From: Halobellus limi
GTDB taxonomy: Archaea; Halobacteriota; Halobacteria; Halobacteriales; Haloferacaceae
Length of the DNA: 64,000 bases
Direction of reading: 5' to 3'
NCBI RefSeq assembly: GCF_004799685.1
Contig: NZ_CP031311.1
Coordinates: 1,178,001-1,242,000, forward strand
Shown in pieces: positions 1 through 11,092 of the stretch. Each line of letters begins with the position of its first letter. Position 1 is the first letter of the stretch. Below the pieces are notes generated by a model. The model worked only from the letters and a program-made list of their open reading frames with translations, searched no databases and had not been told where the DNA came from. The position numbers and the translations under genes were made by a program.

Positions 1-409
1 GCGACAGCCCGAGGTAGTAGACGCTCCAGGGGATCGAACTCTCCGGTACGATATCGAGGTAGATGTCCAGTCGGTCGACCCGGTCTGTCAGTTCGACCGT
101 TCCGTTCTCGAACTCGATCACGCCCGCGCGATCGAGGCGGGGGAGGTGCGTCTGCTGGAGCGACGTGTAGACGGTCTTTCGTTCCGCGGAGGTGACCTCC
201 TCGATCTGCTTGTCGTGTTCCCAGGCGGCGACCTGCTCTGCGAGGTCGGACAACTCGACCGGACCGTCGGTCTGTTTGCAGTAGTGGATCGCGTATCGCC
301 GCCGGTGGTTACCCATCAGGTCGAAGATCTCGTCTTTGGGAAGCCTCTCTTCGGCCCCATCCCCGGTGCCGTCGTCGGTCGTCAACTCTGTTGCGGCCCG
401 TTGGCCCAT
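1..409 (-). CDS. DUF7344-type winged-helix regulator, 3' end cut by window
   Basis: The reading frame starts at an ATG complementary to 407-409 and stays open to the window edge, so only the N-terminal 136 residues are seen. The visible part contains the segment KDEIFDLMGNHRRRYAIHYC, followed by a helical region and a segment ending in DRAGVIEFENGTVELT. This is the layout of the haloarchaeal DUF7344 helix-turn-helix family. It probably binds DNA, and its place next to the secreted-protein genes makes it a candidate local regulator, which is inference. The C-terminus is missing, so membrane segments or extra domains cannot be excluded. Confidence 0.75.
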   Translation of the reverse strand, partial: MGQRAATELTTDDGTGDGAEERLPKDEIFDLMGNHRRRYAIHYCKQTDGPVELSDLAEQVAAWEHDKQIEEVTSAERKTVYTSLQQTHLPRLDRAGVIEFENGTVELTDRVDRLDIYLDIVPESSIPWSVYYLGLS

Positions 410-486
410 CCGTCGGATGTCAATAATAACGACACCTACAAATAGCCTCTCCATTCGCTCCGGCTGACAGCTCCCGTGCGGAGCGC

Positions 487-1095
487 CTACTCCTCGCCTT
501 CGACCAGGACTCGGAGCGTCATCTCGTAGTCCTCGGGGTCGGGGAGGTCCGTCAGCGTCGACGGGCCGTGGTCCGCGATGAGGTCGACCTGGACCCCGAA
601 CGGGACGGACTCGCCGGGGGTGAGGACGCCGTCGCCCGCGGCGTCGTCGGGACTCACCGCCAGGAGGTCGTCGCCGGATCCCCCGGTCGTTTCGAGGGTG
701 TCGCCGCCGGCGGTCACCGACAGCGCGTCTTCGACGTCCGAGAGCGTCTCCGTCGAGAGGGTGTCGCTCTCGGCCTCGAACTCGAAGTACAGCCCCGTGA
801 GGTCGATCGTCCCCGAGTTAGCGACCTCGACGATGTCCGCAAACTGCGTGATCGCGCGCTGGTTCAACCCCGTATCGCCGCCCGGAGTGATGGCCGTGAC
901 GCGGTTTTCGCTGTTGGTTTCGACGTGGATCGGCGGGTCGTTCGCGGGCGTGAGTTCGATGAGGCGGGGATAGACGACCGTGAAAGAGGCCTCGGAACTG
1001 GAGGACGTGGCGGTGAACGCCGCCGTCGAACTGACGACGCCGGCGCTGACGAAGGCGCTACCGAGGCCGGCGACGAGTTGGCGGCGAGTGAGCAT
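487..1095 (-). CDS. SipW-type secreted protein (TasA/camelysin-like), 202 aa
   Basis: The protein opens with MLTRRQLVAGLGSAFVSAGV, a twin-Arg start and hydrophobic stretch, then SSTAAFTATSS, the pattern of SipW-dependent signal peptides. The mature part is acidic and beta-rich, with a DUF1102-like look. It should be cut by a signal peptidase and displayed outside the cell, possibly as a fibre subunit. It is the last of three similar minus-strand genes and sits 82 bp after the previous one. The ATG is complementary to 1093-1095. No sorting signal or transmembrane anchor is visible at the C-terminus. Family placement rests on the signal peptide and neighbourhood. Confidence 0.7.
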   Translation of the reverse strand: MLTRRQLVAGLGSAFVSAGVVSSTAAFTATSSSSEASFTVVYPRLIELTPANDPPIHVETNSENRVTAITPGGDTGLNQRAITQFADIVEVANSGTIDLTGLYFEFEAESDTLSTETLSDVEDALSVTAGGDTLETTGGSGDDLLAVSPDDAAGDGVLTPGESVPFGVQVDLIADHGPSTLTDLPDPEDYEMTLRVLVEGEE

Positions 1096-1177
1096 ATGAA
1101 GTTCCTATTATTTGGATAGGCCAATATGGAGAGCGATATTAGTAGAAACTAAAACTTGAGTTCCTTACTCGACGGCT

Positions 1178-1933
1178 CTAGCTTGTCTGAGTCGGGGTTT
1201 CGTCTGCCACCGCTGTGATCTCCGAAATGAGCTCTGACCGTCCTGCTGGATCTCCTTCGCCTTCTGCAGCGAAGTCACCTGCACCTTCGTATTCATCATT
1301 GTACACATCATCATACGGCAGACCTTCACGCGATGCATCTACGTCAAGATTGACCCCTTGATTACTACCACTCCCAACAGAAACCATATTTGCAGGTGTT
1401 TCTCCGTTATTGCTACTAGCCGGCGAAAGCAGAGAACCATCTCCTCTAAATTGGAAAACCGAGTTTGCAGTGCTTTTCGACACACCATTATCGACATCTG
1501 TCCCATATCCAGTGTAGGCAAATCCTACATCGTAGCTTCGATCGTCGTTATTGACTATAGCAATGATATTACTGAAGTCAATATCTCCTGGAGGAGTTCC
1601 TGCAGCAACAGCCGTCTGGACGGTAGCCATCCCATTTCCAGCATCCTTGGCTATCGCTAGTGGTAAATCGTCGAGAGAAAGAGAATCAAAGGCGATGTTA
1701 CCGCTACTGTCGATGTATTCTGGAGAGTTATCACCAGTATACACATGGGATCCTACTGTGAGTCCTTTATCATCTCCAGGAACAATATCGAGTTCGACAT
1801 CCTCGCTTTGTGTCACTATCGACATCGCGGAGTCACTGTTAGCTGACGTAGCGTCGAACGCACCCGTTCCGAGTGCCGTCCCTGCGCCGAGTGCGAGCGT
1901 TCCGATCGCCGTGATGACCTGTCTTCGTTTCAT
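1178..1933 (-). CDS. SipW-type secreted protein, low-GC copy, 251 aa
   Basis: The N-terminus MKRRQVITAIGTLALGAGTA followed by LGTGAFDATSAN is a clear SipW-type signal peptide. The mature protein is rich in Asp, Ser and Asn with short beta-prone stretches and is likely extracellular. It lies between two genes of the same class. An AT-rich upstream segment (about 1940-1980) has TATA-like sequence, so it may have its own promoter. The DNA from about 1190 to 1800 is visibly richer in A and T than both neighbours and uses codons that are rare in this window, which suggests later acquisition or replacement. Function beyond a surface or fibre protein is unknown. Confidence 0.7.
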   Translation of the reverse strand: MKRRQVITAIGTLALGAGTALGTGAFDATSANSDSAMSIVTQSEDVELDIVPGDDKGLTVGSHVYTGDNSPEYIDSSGNIAFDSLSLDDLPLAIAKDAGNGMATVQTAVAAGTPPGDIDFSNIIAIVNNDDRSYDVGFAYTGYGTDVDNGVSKSTANSVFQFRGDGSLLSPASSNNGETPANMVSVGSGSNQGVNLDVDASREGLPYDDVYNDEYEGAGDFAAEGEGDPAGRSELISEITAVADETPTQTS

Positions 1934-1989
1934 TGTGGAGTGAATTTGAATTTATAGTAAGATTTTATAATAATTATGGCTCGTTTCGA

Positions 1990-2574
1990 CTAGTTCTCCC
2001 CGGCGACGATCGTCAGACCGGTGTCCTCAGCGTCCGTGTCGTCCACGGTCGCCTGTCTGGTGTCGATCTCGACATCGAGTTCTGCGGATTCGCCTTCGTC
2101 GAGGTCTTGGGTACTACCATCTCCGACGCTGTTGGAACCAGTCTCACCGACGTAGAAGGTGACCACAGCCGCGCTGTTGTCTCCCTCCGAAGGAACGAGA
2201 ACTGATGCGCTGTCACCAGGTTCTGCCGATTCCGGGCCATCAGTGGAGACTCCGACCGTCGTACTGGCGTCGGTGTCGGCCGCGTTGTTCGTGATCGTGA
2301 CGATACCGTCGATCGTCGTGATCGCTTCCTCGTTGAGCCCGCTGCCATCCGGACCGCCGATGTTGATCGTCAGTGTTCCATCGTCGCCGCTGTTGTCTTC
2401 GACGTAGTCACCGTCACCCGTGATACTGAGGAACGCGCTCGCGTCGCCCGCGGTGCTCACTTCGACGGAGCGTTCCGCGCTCACTGTGGTGAACGCACCC
2501 GTACCCACGAGTGCGCCGCCGCCGCCGACCAATGCTCCGAGTCCGATCAGTACGTTTCGTCTGCTGAGTGCCAT
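1990..2574 (-). CDS. SipW-type secreted protein, 194 aa
   Basis: Residues 1-30 give RRNVLIGLGALVGGGGALVG then TGAFTTVSAE, a typical SipW-dependent signal peptide. The remainder is acidic and beta-rich, with Thr/Val-rich segments such as ITTIDGIVTITNNA that fit a TasA/camelysin-like jelly-roll fold. It is the first gene of the three-gene minus-strand set. It has the best visible promoter: a purine-rich AGGAG 8-12 bases before the ATG, a 5' leader hairpin, a TATA-like box and a perfect dyad upstream. It probably forms or coats a surface structure processed by the signal peptidase at 3321-4469. Confidence 0.72.
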   Translation of the reverse strand: MALSRRNVLIGLGALVGGGGALVGTGAFTTVSAERSVEVSTAGDASAFLSITGDGDYVEDNSGDDGTLTINIGGPDGSGLNEEAITTIDGIVTITNNAADTDASTTVGVSTDGPESAEPGDSASVLVPSEGDNSAAVVTFYVGETGSNSVGDGSTQDLDEGESAELDVEIDTRQATVDDTDAEDTGLTIVAGEN

Positions 2575-2589
2575 AGTAGTGTTCTCCTA

Positions 2590-2607
2590 ACACGGGGTGG
2601 CCCGTGT
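2590..2607 (-). promoter_or_regulatory. Leader hairpin before the first secreted-protein gene
   Basis: A perfect 7-bp inverted repeat (ACACGGG / CCCGTGT, 4-base loop) lies between the TATA-like box and the ribosome-binding site of the gene starting at 2574. It could be an operator or an RNA hairpin in the 5' leader. Confidence 0.45.
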
Positions 2608-2614
2608 CGCTATC

Positions 2615-2624
2615 TGTATAATGT
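2615..2624 (-). promoter_or_regulatory. TATA-like box for the secreted-protein genes
   Basis: On the minus strand this reads CATTATACAG, an archaeal TATA-like element about 45 bases upstream of the ATG at 2574. With transcription starting about 25 bases downstream it leaves a leader that includes the hairpin at 2590-2607. Confidence 0.45.
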
Positions 2625-2649
2625 ACCCTTACCCACTTTGTATTCAGGT

Positions 2650-2668
2650 GCTTGAATCGGATTCAAGC
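2650..2668. promoter_or_regulatory. Perfect 9-bp dyad upstream of the TATA-like box
   Basis: GCTTGAATCGGATTCAAGC is a perfect inverted repeat with a one-base centre, placed 26 bases upstream of the TATA-like box of the gene starting at 2574. Its position fits an activator or repressor site. The likely binder is unknown; the DUF7344 protein or the receiver protein nearby are candidates only by proximity. Confidence 0.45.
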
Positions 2669-2889
2669 CCGGCGAGTAATCCGTAATCACCCGTTACGAA
2701 GAGCATATTCGTCTTCAAGCTCTGCTTTCTCGACGGTTTAGCGCTCCGAGTAATCGAGGCCGCACCGTCGACGGGTCGAAACAGTTCAAACAGCCATCAC
2801 AAATTCTTATTGTTCGGCTCGGGCAATACGTTGACAGCGCCGTCCCGGCGAGTAGGTCCCCAGGCGTCGCGGTAGCGACCCACCCAACA

Positions 2890-3246
2890 ATGGCCGATGT
2901 CTTGATCGTCGAGGATCTCGGGCTCCAGCGAGCGGTCCTCCGCGGATTCCTGAGCACGACCCATACCGTCGTTGGAGAGGCGACGACCGAACGGGAGGCG
3001 GTGCGGCTCGCCCGTCACCACGCGCCCGACGTCGTGGTGATGGATCTGAACCTCGAACGCGGAAACGGGGTCGAAGCGACGGCGGTGATCAAGACCCTCG
3101 ATCCGTCGATCGCGGTCGTCGTCAGCACGGTCACCGTCACCGAGGCCGTCCGCGAGCAGGCGATGGAAGCGGGCGCGGACGCGTACCTCTCGAAACCGTA
3201 CGGCAAGGCGGATCTCTTGGAGGCCATCGAGTCGACGCTGGGCTGA
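2890..3246 (+). CDS. Stand-alone receiver (REC) response regulator, 118 aa
   Basis: The whole protein is one CheY-like receiver domain. Near the start MADVLIVEDL supplies the acidic pocket, VVVMDLNLERG carries the phospho-acceptor Asp, and AYLSKPYGKADLLEAI carries the conserved Lys-Pro. There is no DNA-binding or output domain, so it must act by protein contact or phosphotransfer. It lies between the secreted-protein genes, read on the other strand, and the signal peptidase gene, read on the same strand 74 bp further on. A role in controlling this surface locus is plausible but inferred. Confidence 0.9.
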   Translation: MADVLIVEDLGLQRAVLRGFLSTTHTVVGEATTEREAVRLARHHAPDVVVMDLNLERGNGVEATAVIKTLDPSIAVVVSTVTVTEAVREQAMEAGADAYLSKPYGKADLLEAIESTLG

Positions 3247-3320
3247 CGTCGACCACGGCCGGACACCGAGCGCCCGGAACCGTATCAAGCGTTATATCGA
3301 TCGATCGTCTAGGCGCTCGC

Positions 3321-4469
3321 GTGAAGCTCTCGACGGCCGTCCAGAACGGGGTCCTCATCCTGCTGATCCTCGCCGTCGGTGCGATGCTGTTCGGGCAGGC
3401 GGCCGGACAGCCGGTCCTCCTCGGCTACGTCGAGACCGGGAGTATGGAACCCACGATGGAGCCCGGCGACGGGTTCGTCGCCGTGCCGTCGGCCATCGCC
3501 GGGCCGCCACAGGAGGGCGACGTCGTCGTCTTCGTCGCCGAGGAGCTGCAAGGCGGAGGGCTGACCACCCACCGGATCGTCGGCGAGACAGAAGAGGGCT
3601 ATATCACCCGCGGCGACGCGAACCCGTTCACCGACCAGTCGGGGGCCGAACCGCCGGTCACCGAAGAGCAGATCGTCGCCGAAGCGCTGCAGATCAACGG
3701 TCAGGTGGTCGTCATTCCGAACCTGGGCTCCGGCGTCGTCGGCTTCCAGGAGTGGCTGACGAGTGCGTGGGCCGCGATCGGAGTCGGTGCGCTCCTGAGC
3801 GGCGGCGGGTCCGCACAGTCGCTGGTCCTTCTGGGCATCGGCATCATCGCCGTCGGCTTCGTCGTCGACGCGTTCACCGGAGACCGGGGGACGAGTCGGC
3901 GGAGTCGGCGCCGCTCGAACTACATCAAGACGTCGACGTTCCTGCTCGTGCTCGCACTCGTCGTACTGGCCCCCGCGACGGCGAGTATGATGGTCCCCTC
4001 GGGGACGACGTCCTTCGACATCGTCAGCTCGGAGTCGCCGAACGAGAACCCGCTGGTCATCGGTGTCGGCGAGGAAGCGACCGTCGAATACCGCGTCGCC
4101 AACGACGGATTCATTCCCGTCCTGACCGTGATCGAACCGCGGAGCCCCAGCCTCTCGGTGTCGCGCTCGTCGTTCATCGTCTCGGGGCGCTCCGAGGAGG
4201 TGACCTCCCTCCGGATACGGGCACCGGACGCCACCGGGTCCTACACGCGCAGCATCTCCGAGTGGCGGTACCTCCCGATCCTCCCGCGTTCTGTCATCCT
4301 CGCGCTGCACGCGATACACCCGGTCGTCGCCGTGCTGGTCATCGATCTGGTGCTGTTGACCGTCGCGGTCACGGCGGGGCTCATCGCGGTGGGAGTCGGC
4401 CCGATACGGATGCGGTCGACCGGACGGAACATCACGCTCGTCCAACAACTCAAGCGGCGGCTGTTCTGA
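3321..4469 (+). CDS. SipW/ER-type signal peptidase I with C-terminal membrane extension, 382 aa
   Basis: Residues 1-190 form an S26 signal peptidase: a first membrane helix, then TGSMEPTMEPGD with the catalytic Ser at about 41, TTHRIV with His at about 84 in place of the bacterial Lys, and ITRGDANPFTDQ with Asp residues at about 99 and 105. The Ser-His form is the ER/SipW type. A second helix follows near 165-180. The rest holds another membrane helix, a predicted extracellular beta domain of about 100 residues and paired C-terminal helices. The GTG start was chosen because it opens just before the first helix. It probably cleaves the neighbouring SipW-type precursors. The last 20 bases overlap the convergent gene. 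Confidence 0.85.
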   Translation: MKLSTAVQNGVLILLILAVGAMLFGQAAGQPVLLGYVETGSMEPTMEPGDGFVAVPSAIAGPPQEGDVVVFVAEELQGGGLTTHRIVGETEEGYITRGDANPFTDQSGAEPPVTEEQIVAEALQINGQVVVIPNLGSGVVGFQEWLTSAWAAIGVGALLSGGGSAQSLVLLGIGIIAVGFVVDAFTGDRGTSRRSRRRSNYIKTSTFLLVLALVVLAPATASMMVPSGTTSFDIVSSESPNENPLVIGVGEEATVEYRVANDGFIPVLTVIEPRSPSLSVSRSSFIVSGRSEEVTSLRIRAPDATGSYTRSISEWRYLPILPRSVILALHAIHPVVAVLVIDLVLLTVAVTAGLIAVGVGPIRMRSTGRNITLVQQLKRRLF

Positions 4470-5076
4470 GCGGTATCGATCCCGCTGTCGTGTCCGTGCG
4501 GCCCGTGGCGGTCCTCCCGCTCGTGCGGGCTGTGGCGGTCTCCCCGCCCGTGCAGTCGTAGGCGACCCGCACGTCGAGTTCCCGGTTCGAGGCCGTCGTG
4601 TTCGTGCTCGTTTCCACGACGGTCACCGTCAGCCGTGCGGTCCCCGACGCCTCGGTCGAGGCCACACACCGCGCGAACAGTCGATGCTGTCCGCCCTGCG
4701 GAATCGTCACCGTGTCGCTGGCGTTCCGAAGTGCGATCGCATCGGCGTCGGTGCGCGCCCGGTACGTGACGTTGACCGTCGCGTCCGCGTCGTTGACGAG
4801 CGCGGCGACGACGACTCCCGCTTCGCTCGTTCGATCGTCCTCGGTTGTCCCGGCTGCTGTCCTCGATGTCGAGTCCGTGGACTCGGAGTCGGGTCCCGCG
4901 TCCGTCACCTCGGTGTCCGTCGCGACGAGGGAGATCGGCCCCTCGGAGCGACCGTCGCCCGGGAGTCCGTCGGCGCTATCGCCGAAGAGCGCTCCGAAGC
5001 CGGCACTCGGCACGGCGGCGAACGTGACGCCGGCCGCGATGAGCAGCAGCCCGAGGTACCAGAGGTTGCGGTCCAT
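4450..5076 (-). CDS. Single-pass membrane-anchored protein, 208 aa
   Basis: The ATG complementary to 5074-5076 opens MDRNLWYLGLLLIAAGVTFA, an N-terminal membrane helix or uncleaved signal. It is followed by a Ser/Thr/Asp-rich linker and a beta-rich domain (about residues 75-175) with several NVT/NTT sequons and two Cys. The tail is Thr/Arg-rich. It follows the DUF5305-like gene on the same strand after 137 bp and overlaps the signal peptidase gene tail to tail by 20 bases. I do not recognise a named family. The context suggests a surface component of the SipW-like locus. A longer upstream frame exists but looks like out-of-frame high-GC sequence. Confidence 0.65.
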   Translation of the reverse strand: MDRNLWYLGLLLIAAGVTFAAVPSAGFGALFGDSADGLPGDGRSEGPISLVATDTEVTDAGPDSESTDSTSRTAAGTTEDDRTSEAGVVVAALVNDADATVNVTYRARTDADAIALRNASDTVTIPQGGQHRLFARCVASTEASGTARLTVTVVETSTNTTASNRELDVRVAYDCTGGETATARTSGRTATGRTDTTAGSIPLRTAAA

Positions 5077-5213
5077 ACGAGAGAGACCGTGGTTGTCTCC
5101 AACAGCGTCTCCCGCCGTCTTGTACTCTTCGGGCGCCGCACCGGAGTCAGTGCCGGATTCGAACACCGTACCCGACGAAGGACGGAACGGATCGAAGCGG
5201 GGCCGAGAACCTC

Positions 5214-6236
5214 TCAGATGTCGAGCCACTCGTCGGCCTGGATCTCGTCCAGCGCGTAGTAGTAGATCTCCGAACTGTCGATCACCGCGTAGGCGTCGAT
5301 CTGCGGGTCGTGGATCACCCGGCGGTTGGTATCGATCGCGACGTCGACGAGGTCTTCGAGCGTCAGGATCGAGATGTACTGCTTCTCGGAGTCGGTGGGG
5401 AACTGCCCTCGGGAGATCCACTCGGCGTGCTGGTCGTGGACGATCTGCGTCCGAAGCTCCTCGGGATCGACACGGTCTTCGAGGCGGCTCACGACGGCGG
5501 CGACGCCGAACAGGAGGAGCCCGACCGCCGCGAGGCCGCCGTACTCCGCCGGGCTCGGTGGCTGGGTGACCTCTCGCTCGACGAAGGTCGATTCGGTCTC
5601 TTCGGCCGCGAGCGCCCCGTCGATGTAGTACGATTGGCCCTGGATCACGAACGGTGCGGTCGATCGAAGCGTCCCCTCGTACTCTCCGGTGCTGTAGGTC
5701 ACTTCCAGGAGCAATCGGAGTCGGAACTGGCCGACGTCTTGGGCGTCCTCCAGCAGGACCGCGAGATCCCGTCCGACCGCGGAGACGTTCACCGTCTCCG
5801 AGGCGGTCACGCGGCCGTCCGAGACGGTCTCGTTCGTCTCGATGAGCGTCCGCGTCGAGCGGTAGAACGGCTGTCCGTCGCGGGTCCCGAGAATCTCCAG
5901 TTCGAGCCGTTGCGCCACGCTGACCCGCTGTCCGGACGGTACCGTGGTGTTGGCCTCGAATCTCATCGACGGCGAGGCCGAGAGGAAGTAGACCGAACGG
6001 TTCTCGAGCCGTTCCCCCTGTTCGTACAGCGCCGTCGGCCGAGTCACCAGCGCGCTCGACCCCACGCGGGTCTCGAACGTCTGCTGGTCGGTTTCCTCGG
6101 TGATCGTCTGTGTGGTCGGCGTACTGAACACGTAGCCCGCACCGACGAGACAGAGCACGCCACCCAGCAGTAACAGCGCGACAACCAGCCTGTGGTTCTC
6201 ACTGACGAACAGTTTGACACGGTGCTCAAACGCCAT
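5214..6236 (-). CDS. DUF5305-like membrane protein, 340 aa
   Basis: A membrane helix at about residues 19-36 (VVALLLLGGVLCLVGAGYVF) is followed by a long extracellular beta-rich region and a second helix at about 230-248. A cytoplasmic tail includes the segment DEIQADEWLDI at the end. This two-helix layout and sequence match haloarchaeal DUF5305 proteins, which recur beside signal peptidase and SipW-type precursors. The biochemical role is unknown; assembly or anchoring of the exported proteins is a reasonable guess. It heads a minus-strand pair with the gene at 4450-5076. Confidence 0.75.
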   Translation of the reverse strand: MAFEHRVKLFVSENHRLVVALLLLGGVLCLVGAGYVFSTPTTQTITEETDQQTFETRVGSSALVTRPTALYEQGERLENRSVYFLSASPSMRFEANTTVPSGQRVSVAQRLELEILGTRDGQPFYRSTRTLIETNETVSDGRVTASETVNVSAVGRDLAVLLEDAQDVGQFRLRLLLEVTYSTGEYEGTLRSTAPFVIQGQSYYIDGALAAEETESTFVEREVTQPPSPAEYGGLAAVGLLLFGVAAVVSRLEDRVDPEELRTQIVHDQHAEWISRGQFPTDSEKQYISILTLEDLVDVAIDTNRRVIHDPQIDAYAVIDSSEIYYYALDEIQADEWLDI

Positions 6237-6367: not shown

Positions 6368-7954
6368 ATGTCCAACGACATTCCAGACAGCGGTGACGGC
6401 CCCTCGACGACCACCTCCTTCGAGGAGTGGTTAGACCAGCACGCCGCGACCCAGGGCATCTCGCGCGAGGAGCTTTTCGAGCGGTTAGTCTCCTCTTACT
6501 GGACGCTCAACGAACTGATGCAACTGCTCGACGACTCGGGGAGCGGCAACCCCTCGTTCGGAGGGGCGTCCGAGCCGACCGACGAGTCCGGAGCGCTCCC
6601 GATCGGTCCCGAACGAACCGATCCGACCGCAGAGGCCGAACACGCCGGAACGGATGGGTCACGAAACGACCGCGAGGCGGCGACCGACGTCGAGGCGCTG
6701 GCCGAGGAACTCGATACACTCGGGGACCGCGTCGACGAACTGCAATCGACGCTCGAAGCGGAGGCGGAGCGCGGTCGATCGCTGGATCAGGTCACCGAGA
6801 CGATCGCGACTCGGCTCGCGGAGGTCGAATCGGAACTGGAGGGCCTGGCGTCGGAGTCGGAGGCGACCCGCGAGTCGCTCACCAGGGAGTACGAGTCCCT
6901 CTCCGAGCGGGTCGAGACGATCGAGTCGGAACTCGACAGGGAGCGGGAGACGCGAGCCACGGAACAGCGAGAGCTGGCTACAGAGCAGAAGGAGATCAGG
7001 TCGCGGCTGGACTCGGAGTTCGACAACCTGGAGACGATCCTCAAATACCTCGTCTCTCAGACCGACGAACTGGGGGCTGACCTCGCGAGTGCAGAGTCGC
7101 GGTACGAGGACGCGCTGTCGCGGATCCGCCGGGAGCAAGAGACGTTGGCCTCGCTCAAACGCGACGCCGCGGCGGCGGACGCACACGCCGGCGAGTGCGA
7201 GTCCTGCGGTGAAACGGTCGACCTCGACCTGCTTTCTCGACCGTACTGCCCGCACTGTGAAGAGGGGCTGACCGGGGTCGAGAAACAACGCAAGTGGCTG
7301 CTCTTCTCTGATACCCTCGTCACCACGGACGACGAAGGCCGCTCGAAGCCCACGGAAGGAACGCGGGGACAGACCGGGAGACAGCCGCCCTCGCAGCCGC
7401 GGTCCGGGAGCGGAACCCGAAGCCAGGCTCCGTCTTCGAAGGGAGGCGGCTCATCGATACCGACTGGCTCCAGTGAGTCACGGTCGTCGGTCGGTGACCA
7501 CGAAACGCGCGGCCGCGGGGCCGACTCCGGAACGCAGCGTCGGGGCGACGAAGCGGAGACGGTCGAATCGGAGACGGCCGCCGATCGAACCCTGGGCGGA
7601 TTCTCGGGATTCGATTCCGCGGAGGACGAGGACGTCGAATCCGCGGCCGACAGCGCGACCGAACGGACGGACGAGACGGCCTCCCCCTTCGAGTTCGGCG
7701 ACTCCGGAACGGACCCGAGAGACACGGCTTCGGAGTCCGCTTCCGAACCCAGCAGGCAGGGGGGCCGGGGGTCTACGGGACGGAACCGGGACCAGGAGGA
7801 CCCACGTCGGCGAACCCCGGCCGAGCCCGAAGCGGCCGAGTACGCTGCGGGGGGCGACGAGCGGTCATCCACGCAGTCGGAATCGGCGTCCGGATCCGAT
7901 TCGCCATTCGGGAACCTCGAAGATCTGGAACGGCGAGAAGGCGTCGACGAGTAA
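6368..7954 (+). CDS. Coiled-coil protein with zinc ribbon, 528 aa
   Basis: The start chosen gives MSNDIPDSGDGP; an earlier in-frame ATG at 6293 adds 25 residues with no family look. Residues 20-60 contain an amphipathic region (ISREELFERLVSSYWTLNEL). About residues 115-285 are a long Glu/Arg-rich coiled coil. A zinc ribbon follows near 278-300, CESCG then CPHC. The last 220 residues are low-complexity, rich in Ser, Glu, Arg and Gly. It is divergent from the DUF5305-like gene, so it may belong to the surface locus. Its role is unknown. The stop lies only 11 bases from the convergent tnpB stop. Confidence 0.7.
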   Translation: MSNDIPDSGDGPSTTTSFEEWLDQHAATQGISREELFERLVSSYWTLNELMQLLDDSGSGNPSFGGASEPTDESGALPIGPERTDPTAEAEHAGTDGSRNDREAATDVEALAEELDTLGDRVDELQSTLEAEAERGRSLDQVTETIATRLAEVESELEGLASESEATRESLTREYESLSERVETIESELDRERETRATEQRELATEQKEIRSRLDSEFDNLETILKYLVSQTDELGADLASAESRYEDALSRIRREQETLASLKRDAAAADAHAGECESCGETVDLDLLSRPYCPHCEEGLTGVEKQRKWLLFSDTLVTTDDEGRSKPTEGTRGQTGRQPPSQPRSGSGTRSQAPSSKGGGSSIPTGSSESRSSVGDHETRGRGADSGTQRRGDEAETVESETAADRTLGGFSGFDSAEDEDVESAADSATERTDETASPFEFGDSGTDPRDTASESASEPSRQGGRGSTGRNRDQEDPRRRTPAEPEAAEYAAGGDERSSTQSESASGSDSPFGNLEDLERREGVDE

Positions 7955-8060
7955 ACTACTCCACCCTACTCGCTCACGGCGTCGCCGTTCGCTTCGTTGA
8001 GGGTTCCGTCAGACTTCGTCTGACGGCGTGCAGACTGTGCGTCTGCACTGGGGTTTTCGC
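7955..8060 (-). ncRNA. Candidate reRNA (omega RNA) from the 3' end of tnpB
   Basis: Inside the 3' end of tnpB are two adjacent perfect hairpins: an 8-bp stem at 8028-8035/8041-8048 and a 9-bp stem with a 3-base loop at 8006-8014/8018-8026. A smaller GC-rich hairpin follows nearer the stop codon. TnpB guide RNAs are known to be made from the 3' end of tnpB and the element's right end. Boundaries are estimated, and the guide segment would fall at or below about 7960. Confidence 0.45.
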
Positions 8061-9285
8061 GTGGACTCTCGTTCTGGCCTTCACAGGCAGGCTCGTAATC
8101 GCCGTTCACGTTCAACGTCCCGCGATTCAAGCGCACGTTTACGGGTGCGCCTCCGCTCGACGACTTTTGCGCCGAACGGAGATACTTCAGACCGATATTC
8201 TTCGCCGCGTTATAGTCAGCGTTCACTTCGTAGCCGCACTTCTGGCAACAGAACCACTCTTGTGTCTGGCGGTTCTCGCGGAGTGTCGTCCCACACTTCG
8301 AACACCGTTGGGATGTGTAGGTGGGACTCACTTGCTCGACCGAGATGCCGACCACCTCGGCTTTGTATTCAACGTACTCGAACAGCCGGCGGAACGCCCA
8401 GACGTGGAATTTCTTGGCGTTCGGCATCCGCTCACGAATTCCAGTCAGGTTCTCGAACGCGATCACGTCGCAGTCGGTTTCGACGGCTTCCGCGATGAGT
8501 TCCTTCGAGACGGTGTGTAAGAAGTGGTCGTAGCGGCCTGTCTCCGTGCGTCCGACCGACTGGATAGTTTCGTGAGCGGCTCGCGTTCCACGTTGTTGAA
8601 GCGATCCGCGCCGCTTCTCGAACTCGCGGTGCCAGTGGTTCAACTCTGATCCGTTCCAGAACGTACCTGTCGAAGTGACGGCGACGTTTTCGATGCCGAG
8701 GTCAACGCCGAGGACTGTGCTGTGCTCGTCGTTGCCTTCGTCGGCAGTCTCGAACTCCACGTCCGCCTTTGTTCGGACGTGAAGGTAGAAATCCCCCTCT
8801 CGGTAGTGGAGTTCTGCGCCCGTCACTTCGTAATTAGTATTGAACAAGTACTTCGAGTGTGGCGTCTCGCGGTTCTCGTCGGGAAGAACGTACTCGGCGG
8901 TGATGCGTCCGTCCACGGTTGAGAGTGTGGCGTGGTCGTCGTTGAACGTCGCACACCGCTTGTCGTAGACGAGCGTCGGGGCGGAGAAGTGCGGTTTTCC
9001 TGCGTAATCACCTTGCTTCCACCGAGCGACGACGCTCTGGACGGCGTCGGCGGCCTTGTTGCGGGCGTTCTGCACGAGATTCGCTTGGAGCCGAGTCTCT
9101 GCCCGCACGTGGTCGTACGTTTCGCGTTGGAGTTCGGCTTTGCTTGTCGTCTTGTACTCGCCTTGCCACGCGTGGTCTACGACGTAATTGGCAGCCCACA
9201 AGAACTCGGAGACGGTTTCGTGGAGGAGGTCGGCGTCGCTGTCTGCCACGTCGAGTTTTACTGGAACAGTACGACGGACCTCCAT
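7966..9285 (-). CDS. tnpB: TnpB, RNA-guided nuclease of an IS200/IS605 (IS1341-type) element
   Basis: The 439-residue protein has the RuvC-like triad: D195 in [11 protein letters not shown]278 in IAFENLTG and D357 in [11 protein letters not shown] zinc finger lies between the last two (CSKC at 328-331, C347 and C350). The N-terminal half has the usual wedge/REC-like region. All catalytic residues are present, so it looks active. No tnpA is seen within the window, which makes it an IS1341-type element that would need a transposase elsewhere. GC is a little lower than in neighbours. The C-terminal 60 residues are encoded by hairpin-rich DNA that probably doubles as guide RNA. Confidence 0.92.
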
Positions 9286-10445: not shown

Positions 10446-10478
10446 ACGTCCTTCAGGACGTGGGGGTGGTCAACCCCC
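10446..10478. repeat. Two adjacent hairpins upstream of the HalX gene
   Basis: ACGTCC/GGACGT with a 4-base loop (10446-10461) is followed directly by a GGGGG/CCCCC stem with a 7-base loop (10462-10478). They end about 50 bases before the HalX start codon, so they could be regulatory. The pair also looks like a solo end of an IS200/IS605-type element. Confidence 0.4.
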
Positions 10479-10528
10479 GTAAACTTATCACCACAACGGC
10501 CCAAACCGTTGGCAGGCGCACCGACAGT

Positions 10529-11092
10529 ATGAGCACATATCCCCACGTCCTGATTGTCGACGACGAGCCGGACCTCGCAGAGTTATACGCGTCGTGGTTG
10601 CCGGAGGACCACATCGTCGAGACGGCTCACGACGGGACCACCGCGCTCGAACGGTTCGGCGAGTCGGTCGACGTCGTGCTCTTAGACCGGCGGATGCCGG
10701 GGCTCTCCGGCGACGAGGTCCTCGAGCGGATCCGCGAACGCCCGACGAACTGCGGCGTCGCGATGATCACCGCCGTCGATCCGGACTTCGACATCCTGGA
10801 ACTGGGGTTCGACGCGTACCTCACGAAGCCGGTCGGAAAACCGGACCTCAGAGACGTCATCGATCGCCTGCTTCGGCGCTCGGAGTACACCGAAACGCTC
10901 CGGCAGTTCTTTATGAAGCTCTCGAAGCGCGAGGCGCTGATGGCCCAGAAGCCGCTGTCCGAACTCGAATCCGATTCGCGGTACCAACAGCTGGAATCGG
11001 AGATCGAAACGCTGCGGCAGGAGTCGGAGGCGCATATGGCCGAACTCGACGGGGAGGACTTCGAGGCGCTGTTCTACCGGCTCGACGCCTGA
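10529..11092 (+). CDS. HalX-type response regulator, 187 aa
   Basis: Residues 1-120 form a receiver domain: MSTYPHVLIVDDEPDLAELY gives the acidic pair, VVLLDRRMPG the phospho-acceptor Asp, and AYLTKPVGKPDL the conserved Lys. The C-terminal 65 residues are the HalX helical domain, with FFMKLSKREALMAQKPLSEL and a coiled segment. HalX proteins are haloarchaeal signalling outputs of uncertain mechanism. The ATG at 10529 is preferred to the upstream in-frame ATG at 10460 because the receiver starts there and a TATA-like AAACTTATCA (10481-10490) sits about 40 bases upstream. Confidence 0.9.
   Translation: MSTYPHVLIVDDEPDLAELYASWLPEDHIVETAHDGTTALERFGESVDVVLLDRRMPGLSGDEVLERIRERPTNCGVAMITAVDPDFDILELGFDAYLTKPVGKPDLRDVIDRLLRRSEYTETLRQFFMKLSKREALMAQKPLSELESDSRYQQLESEIETLRQESEAHMAELDGEDFEALFYRLDA

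Follow-up and report, generated by a model that had tools for sequence, protein, structure and literature searches.

The closest known relative of the gene set examined here is a haloarchaeal filament deposited in the Protein Data Bank (PDB) as 9P0A ("Structure of Natrinema sp. J7-2 Tafi pilus", released 2025-07-23). Other archaeal filaments built from donor-strand beta-sandwich subunits are the bundling pili (7ueg), termed a TasA-like system in an excerpt of PMC9674648, and the Sulfolobus threads (7pnb), whose subunits use Sec export and are cut by signal peptidase 1 according to an excerpt of PMC9715654. The Bacillus TapA-SipW-TasA system encodes a dedicated signal peptidase with its fibre subunits (PMC9674648, in excerpt), and NCBIfam holds Taf fimbrial families (TafA, TafC, TafE, TafF). 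We analyzed 64,000 nucleotides of Halobellus limi (hereafter the window; G000:C1:1178001-1242000 of a 3.75 Mb haloarchaeal genome), which carry genes for three precursors (named p1, p2, and p3), a stand-alone receiver, a signal peptidase, a DUF5305 protein, a small membrane-anchored protein, and a DUF7344 regulator (Table 1). A first-pass annotation had listed this same gene set, all of which is present, and had read it as a SipW/TasA-like surface fibre locus. We consider it highly likely that the locus instead specifies a pilus of the Tafi type, in which beta-sandwich subunits are linked by donor strands, and most likely a three-subunit variant of the filament type solved in a related species in 2025. 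This variant stands out by having three distinct precursors with a pilin fold, a set retained in Halobellus and Haloferax, and a receiver that stands alone next to the peptidase. Its peptidase also has a conserved second external domain, and its regulator is apparently membrane-anchored.

The strongest evidence is the relationship of the precursors to the solved pilin. A phmmer search of solved-structure sequences with p3 matched 9P0A at E 3.1e-13, and the p3 family profile (59 sequences) matched it at E 3.5e-43 over residues 7-181 of 188. The p1 family profile also matched 9P0A (E 2.7e-24 over 2-137), and the p2 family profile gave a weak match (E 1.1e-6 over 1-63). The 9P0A sequence is identical over 215/215 residues to the product of L124:6860-7537 in Natrinema gari JCM 14663 (L numbers denote the loci compared), where the pilin gene is accompanied by an anchored protein with weak beta-solenoid matches, a DUF7344 protein, a 902-aa protein, a 394-aa CARDB protein, a two-domain peptidase, and a DUF5305 protein. 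Because this 9P0A-identical gene adjoins homologues of the window's peptidase (47% identity), DUF5305 protein (35%), and DUF7344 protein (53%), the locus type can be tied to a solved filament. The two loci thus share a pilin homologous to p3 and p1, with the same signal-peptide pattern, and four kinds of neighbor (two-domain peptidase, DUF5305, DUF7344, and anchored protein). They differ in that L124 has one pilin and the window three pilin-fold precursors, in the stand-alone receiver, a feature of the window, and in the 902-aa and CARDB proteins, for which no counterpart was recognized among the window genes examined. An anonymous gene set that is widespread in haloarchaea is in this way connected to a solved filament, and its description as little known is out of date. 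Among the open-licence papers listed, none was on haloarchaeal Tafi pili, so a 9P0A paper may exist elsewhere; matches to "Tafi fimbriae" were mostly Salmonella papers (among the 15 listed of 52).

Structure prediction and profile comparison extend the relationship to p2. AlphaFold2 models of p3 (59-row alignment; pLDDT 75.1, pTM 0.67) and p2 (12-row alignment; pLDDT 72.2, pTM 0.72) are both mostly beta. The p3 list from VIA-align is headed by 9P0A (Z 7.6, 130 residues aligned, rmsd 4.0) and 7ueg (Z 6.6), and the p2 list by 7ueg (Z 7.8, 149 aligned, rmsd 4.1), 7pnb (Z 7.4), and 9P0A (Z 6.7). The bundling pili and threads belong to other lineages, and their sequence identity to p2 and p3 is about 8 to 13%. 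The mature parts of p1 and p3 are clearly related by hhalign profile comparison (99.6%), and those of p2 and p1 are related (90.5%), while 11 other pairs from the locus scored 0.1-0.4%. Kinship through the signal peptide alone was considered and rejected, as both relationships survive trimming. In its own genome, the p3 profile retrieved p3, p1, p2, a TafC-like neighbor, and one weak match. p1 and p3 are therefore homologous to the solved pilin, and p2 and p3 have a predicted pilin-like fold.

We also evaluated how widely the locus is conserved, counting strong hits in 99 related genomes and using distances of 8 kb or 15 kb. Of these relatives, 68 had DUF5305 hits and 71 had hits to the window's peptidase. 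A DUF5305 gene lay within 8 kb of 63/77 strong peptidase hits, and a strong peptidase hit lay within 8 kb of 63/87 strong DUF5305 hits. Given the density of hits, we calculate that well under one such co-occurrence would be expected, against the 63 of 77 observed; the peptidase-DUF5305 set is thus not a chance cluster. TafA-type hits (65 used) were within 15 kb of 27/77 strong peptidase hits. For comparison of gene content we assembled 81 loci, consisting of the window and 80 named loci chosen by their peptidase (80 retained out of 293 confirmed, some on contigs that end early). Haloferax gibbonsii and H. prahovense are among the species with the locus. DUF5305 is present in 78 of these loci, DUF7344 in 68, a p3-type protein in 66, at least one precursor or anchored relative in 72, and a receiver in 12. 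The DUF5305 family was absent from all 14 control genomes, Haloferax volcanii among them, so the system may have been overlooked in the usual genetic model.

The number and type of precursors vary widely between these loci. Two alternative explanations were weighed. In the first, the pilus consists of p3 alone, and p1 and p2 would be distinct proteins, secreted or at the surface, that share its peptidase, e.g. S-layer-associated proteins. The distinct composition of p2 (GC 49.5%) and its weak sequence similarity to p3 would fit this explanation, as would the absence of the p1-p2 pair in L066 and the presence of one such precursor in the stretch of the Natrinema locus examined. It is opposed by the clear relationship of mature p1 to p3, the archaeal pilin-like fold of p2, and the occurrence of p1, p2, and p3 together beside the peptidase in 9/81 loci (the window, two Halobellus, and six Haloferax); L067 also carries the triad. 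We regard this explanation as possible but unlikely. The second is that no filament is made and that the genes serve generally to export and anchor surface proteins of diverse kinds, for which the variable precursor content is the argument. We find it very improbable, given that a homologous locus is the source of a solved filament and that a pilin-like fold is retained by the subunits.

A third explanation is the one favored by the first-pass annotation, in which the locus is a haloarchaeal SipW/TasA/camelysin system with SipW-cognate precursors, a SipW peptidase, and TasA-like fibres. The peptidase does belong to the Ser-His-Asp archaeal/SipW class, and the bundling pili called TasA-like in the excerpt of PMC9674648 are among the best fold matches. 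However, p1, p2, and p3 had no match at E <= 1 to either TIGR04088 (SipW-dependent-type signal peptide) or PF12389 (camelysin/TasA family). The genome itself supplies the positive controls: a separate locus at C1:95820-103928 (L156, G000:C1:92936-104886), 1.08 Mb from the window locus, encodes three precursors over the TIGR04088 cut-off, one of which (C1:95877) is also over that of PF12389. Two precursors there have VWA domains, and the locus has its own signal peptidase and a DUF7344 protein nearby. The Bacillus SipW model gave 66.5 bits for that peptidase and 33.8 for the window's. Given these matches, the SipW-like name suits the separate locus and not the window, for which we reject SipW/TasA/camelysin membership. 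For p3, Foldseek listed the TasA fibre 8aur as a weak row (E 0.3); this fibre was not among the VIA-align rows listed for p2 and p3, which is no evidence either way. The window differs from the Bacillus system in matching neither its signal-peptide nor its subunit families and in having a twin-arginine motif, and no TapA was recognized at the locus. We thus judge this third explanation very unlikely. What stands of the earlier proposal is a filament export-and-display unit with its own peptidase, whose precursors resemble archaeal donor-strand pilins; the SipW-type signal peptides and the SipW/TasA/camelysin lineage do not. The genome shows one archaeon carrying two separate systems with dedicated peptidases.

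Comparison with the NCBIfam Taf families requires some care. These families are over their cut-offs in L028, where the same peptidase type, DUF5305, and DUF7344 lie alongside, while the window proteins fall well under. p3 scored 71.2 bits against the TafE model (cut-off 155) over almost its full length and 44.6 against TafA (cut-off 190), and LamG-type TafC and TafF had no match among the window genes scanned. As a control, the solved Tafi pilin was scored in the same way and is also below the cut-offs (TafE 77.1, TafA 52.9). We therefore rejected the missed cut-offs as proof of non-membership.

Several points weigh against a Tafi-type pilus. No window protein reaches the NCBIfam Taf cut-offs, and no counterpart of the Natrinema 394-aa CARDB protein was recognized at the window locus. 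Neither the p2 nor the p3 model reached a Foldseek E <= 0.001, and all VIA-align Z scores are modest (<8), in a range that the tool rates as common. The fold models cover p2 and p3, and p1 is placed by sequence. The p2 match to 9P0A falls mainly on the end that carries the signal peptide, and the mature parts of p2 and p3 are weakly similar (hhalign, 40.6%). The p1-p2 pair is missing in the close relative L066 (peptidase 82% identical), which has another TafE-like protein instead. Finally, the Halobellus limi locus is known from its genes, and the filament itself was solved in Natrinema. The fold match nevertheless carries weight because archaeal donor-strand pili head both lists (three for p2 and two for p3) and because it agrees with the sequence match. 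The gap in L066 indicates that the p1-p2-p3 triad is not obligatory.

The precursors and the peptidase offer clues to processing. All three signal peptides contain RR and end in GTGAF (p2 and p3) or STAAF (p1). An RR pair in a signal peptide marks the twin-arginine route, and from this motif p1, p2, and p3 are probably exported by that route. A27 and F28 are invariant across the 59-row p3 alignment. The solved 9P0A chain of 188 residues corresponds exactly to precursor residues 28-215, which places the probable cut before F28. Models of p2 and p3 are poorly ordered in the segment following the predicted cut, and pLDDT falls below 50 at residues 9-20 of p3 and 1-35 of p2. Such poor order would suit a free donor strand without proving one.

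The signal peptidase has four hydrophobic stretches. Its hydropathy, together with basic loops read by eye, suggests two external domains, one catalytic and a second at about 218-334 between helices. S41, H84, D99, and D105 are present in 81/81 homologues, although the search patterns include S41 and D99, whose invariance is therefore partly by construction. No catalytic Lys is conserved, as no column within residues 42-139 has Lys in more than 40 of the 81 peptidases. The enzyme is thus of the Ser-His(-Asp) type, with Ser41, His84, and an Asp in the external catalytic domain, which bears out the Ser-His assignment made earlier. The second external domain is also found in 81/81. Profile comparison shows no similarity between it and the pilins (0.2-0.4%), and a Pfam scan of this domain returned no family for the window protein and one weak Ig-like row (E 0.0044) for the L124 homologue. 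By peptidase, the nearest named relatives are Halobellus captivus (82%) and H. clavatus (67%). A more distant peptidase (47% identity) belongs to a haloarchaeal-type pilus locus, L085 (PULR01000059.1), on a contig titled "Mollicutes bacterium" from a metagenome-assembled genome; this contig is probably misbinned or mislabelled.

From homology, fold similarity, synteny, and catalytic residues, all computational observations, we infer a path of export, cleavage, donor-strand assembly, and display. p1, p2, and p3 would be exported, probably via the twin-arginine route, and cut by the linked Ser-His-Asp signal peptidase just before the conserved Phe. A short strand at the N-terminus would be released by the cut and would fill in the fold of the next subunit, resulting in donor-strand polymerization. 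p3 is the likely main subunit, and p1 and p2 probably serve at the tip, at the base, or as adapters. A membrane base may be formed by the DUF5305 protein, perhaps with the second external domain of the peptidase. The TafC-like protein and the small protein, both anchored, likely serve as attached parts for adhesion or anchoring. Control likely falls to the DUF7344 regulator and the receiver. DUF5305 and DUF7344 would hence gain candidate roles. In a more elaborate version, the peptidase would be a combined cutter and assembly platform, whose second external domain, with DUF5305, catches the cut pilin, lends it a temporary strand, and hands it on, as a single-membrane counterpart of chaperone-usher assembly. 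DUF7344 would sense assembly at the membrane, the receiver would gate it, and p1, p2, and p3 would form an ordered three-subunit pilus. This version is speculative and we think it rather unlikely.

From gene position alone, it is plausible that the receiver and the DUF7344 protein act as regulators. The window, L076, and L077 each have a stand-alone receiver near the peptidase (gaps of 75, 90, and 58 bp), and L085, L108, L116, L120, and L139 have a longer receiver protein 22-52 bp from the peptidase. A receiver is thus directly beside the peptidase in 8/81 loci. The one longer protein scanned, from L108, carries a HalX and possibly a DUF5658 domain. The DUF7344 regulator is 207 aa at full length (L002:9831-10454) and has two predicted C-terminal membrane helices by hydropathy; two helices are also predicted in 51 of the 68 loci having the family.

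Table 1. Features of the Halobellus limi locus and adjoining genes, in window coordinates.
Feature	Position	Strand	Remarks
DUF7344 winged-helix regulator	1..454	-	continues past the left edge of the window; PF24035 6.8e-29 on full protein
p1, pilin-fold precursor, 202 aa	487..1095	-	twin-arginine signal; predicted cut before F27
p2, pilin-fold precursor, 251 aa	1178..1933	-	twin-arginine signal; predicted cut before F26
p3, Tafi-type pilin, likely major subunit, 194 aa	1990..2574	-	twin-arginine signal; predicted cut A27/F28
Stand-alone response-regulator receiver, 118 aa	2890..3246	+	PF00072 1.8e-25
Tafi-type signal peptidase, 382 aa	3321..4469	+	TIGR02228 61.6 bits vs cut-off 51.85
Small membrane-anchored protein, 208 aa	4450..5076	-	one N-terminal helix (hydropathy)
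DUF5305 protein, 340 aa	5214..6236	-	PF17231 1.1e-43; two helices
Coiled-coil protein with CxxC motifs	6368..7954	+	adjoins the locus
RNA-guided endonuclease TnpB	7966..9285	-	NF040570, 178.5 bits
Receiver-HalX protein	10460..11092	+	adjoins the locus

Alignment and hydropathy give the DUF5305 protein a short inside N-terminus, a helix, an external domain, a second helix, and a conserved inside C-terminal domain. The small anchored protein matched no Pfam or NCBIfam family better than chance, and a family search found a homologue in L076. By eye, it appears to resemble the TafC-like protein left of the window in that protein's N-terminal domain. The unit extends beyond the left edge of the window to include the regulator and this anchored TafC-like protein (L002). 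An anchored protein of 522-567 aa is likewise located beyond DUF7344 in L065, L066, L067, and L068. The TafC model matches the N-terminal part of the large anchored protein in L065, L066, and L069 (41-46 bits; 42.2 for L065) and had no match to that in L070 or L077. In the H. limi genome, the TafC-like gene (G000:C1 about 1176141-1177773; L002 8141-9773) is broken into two pieces by a frameshift close to six consecutive G; the pieces are 66-74% identical to the L065 protein. The split may be a sequencing or assembly error, a broken gene, or a phase switch.

The low GC content of p2, which compares with a window average of 64.8%, recurs elsewhere, and p2 is GC-poor relative to its own surroundings in L065, L067, L068, and L070 as well. 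On the right, the gene for the coiled-coil protein keeps its order in L065 and L066, where a homologue of the receiver-HalX protein also occupies the same position in the order. The TnpB gene lies between the coiled-coil gene and a DUF7504 gene, and it looks like a recent insertion because the flanking genes adjoin without it in L065 and L066.

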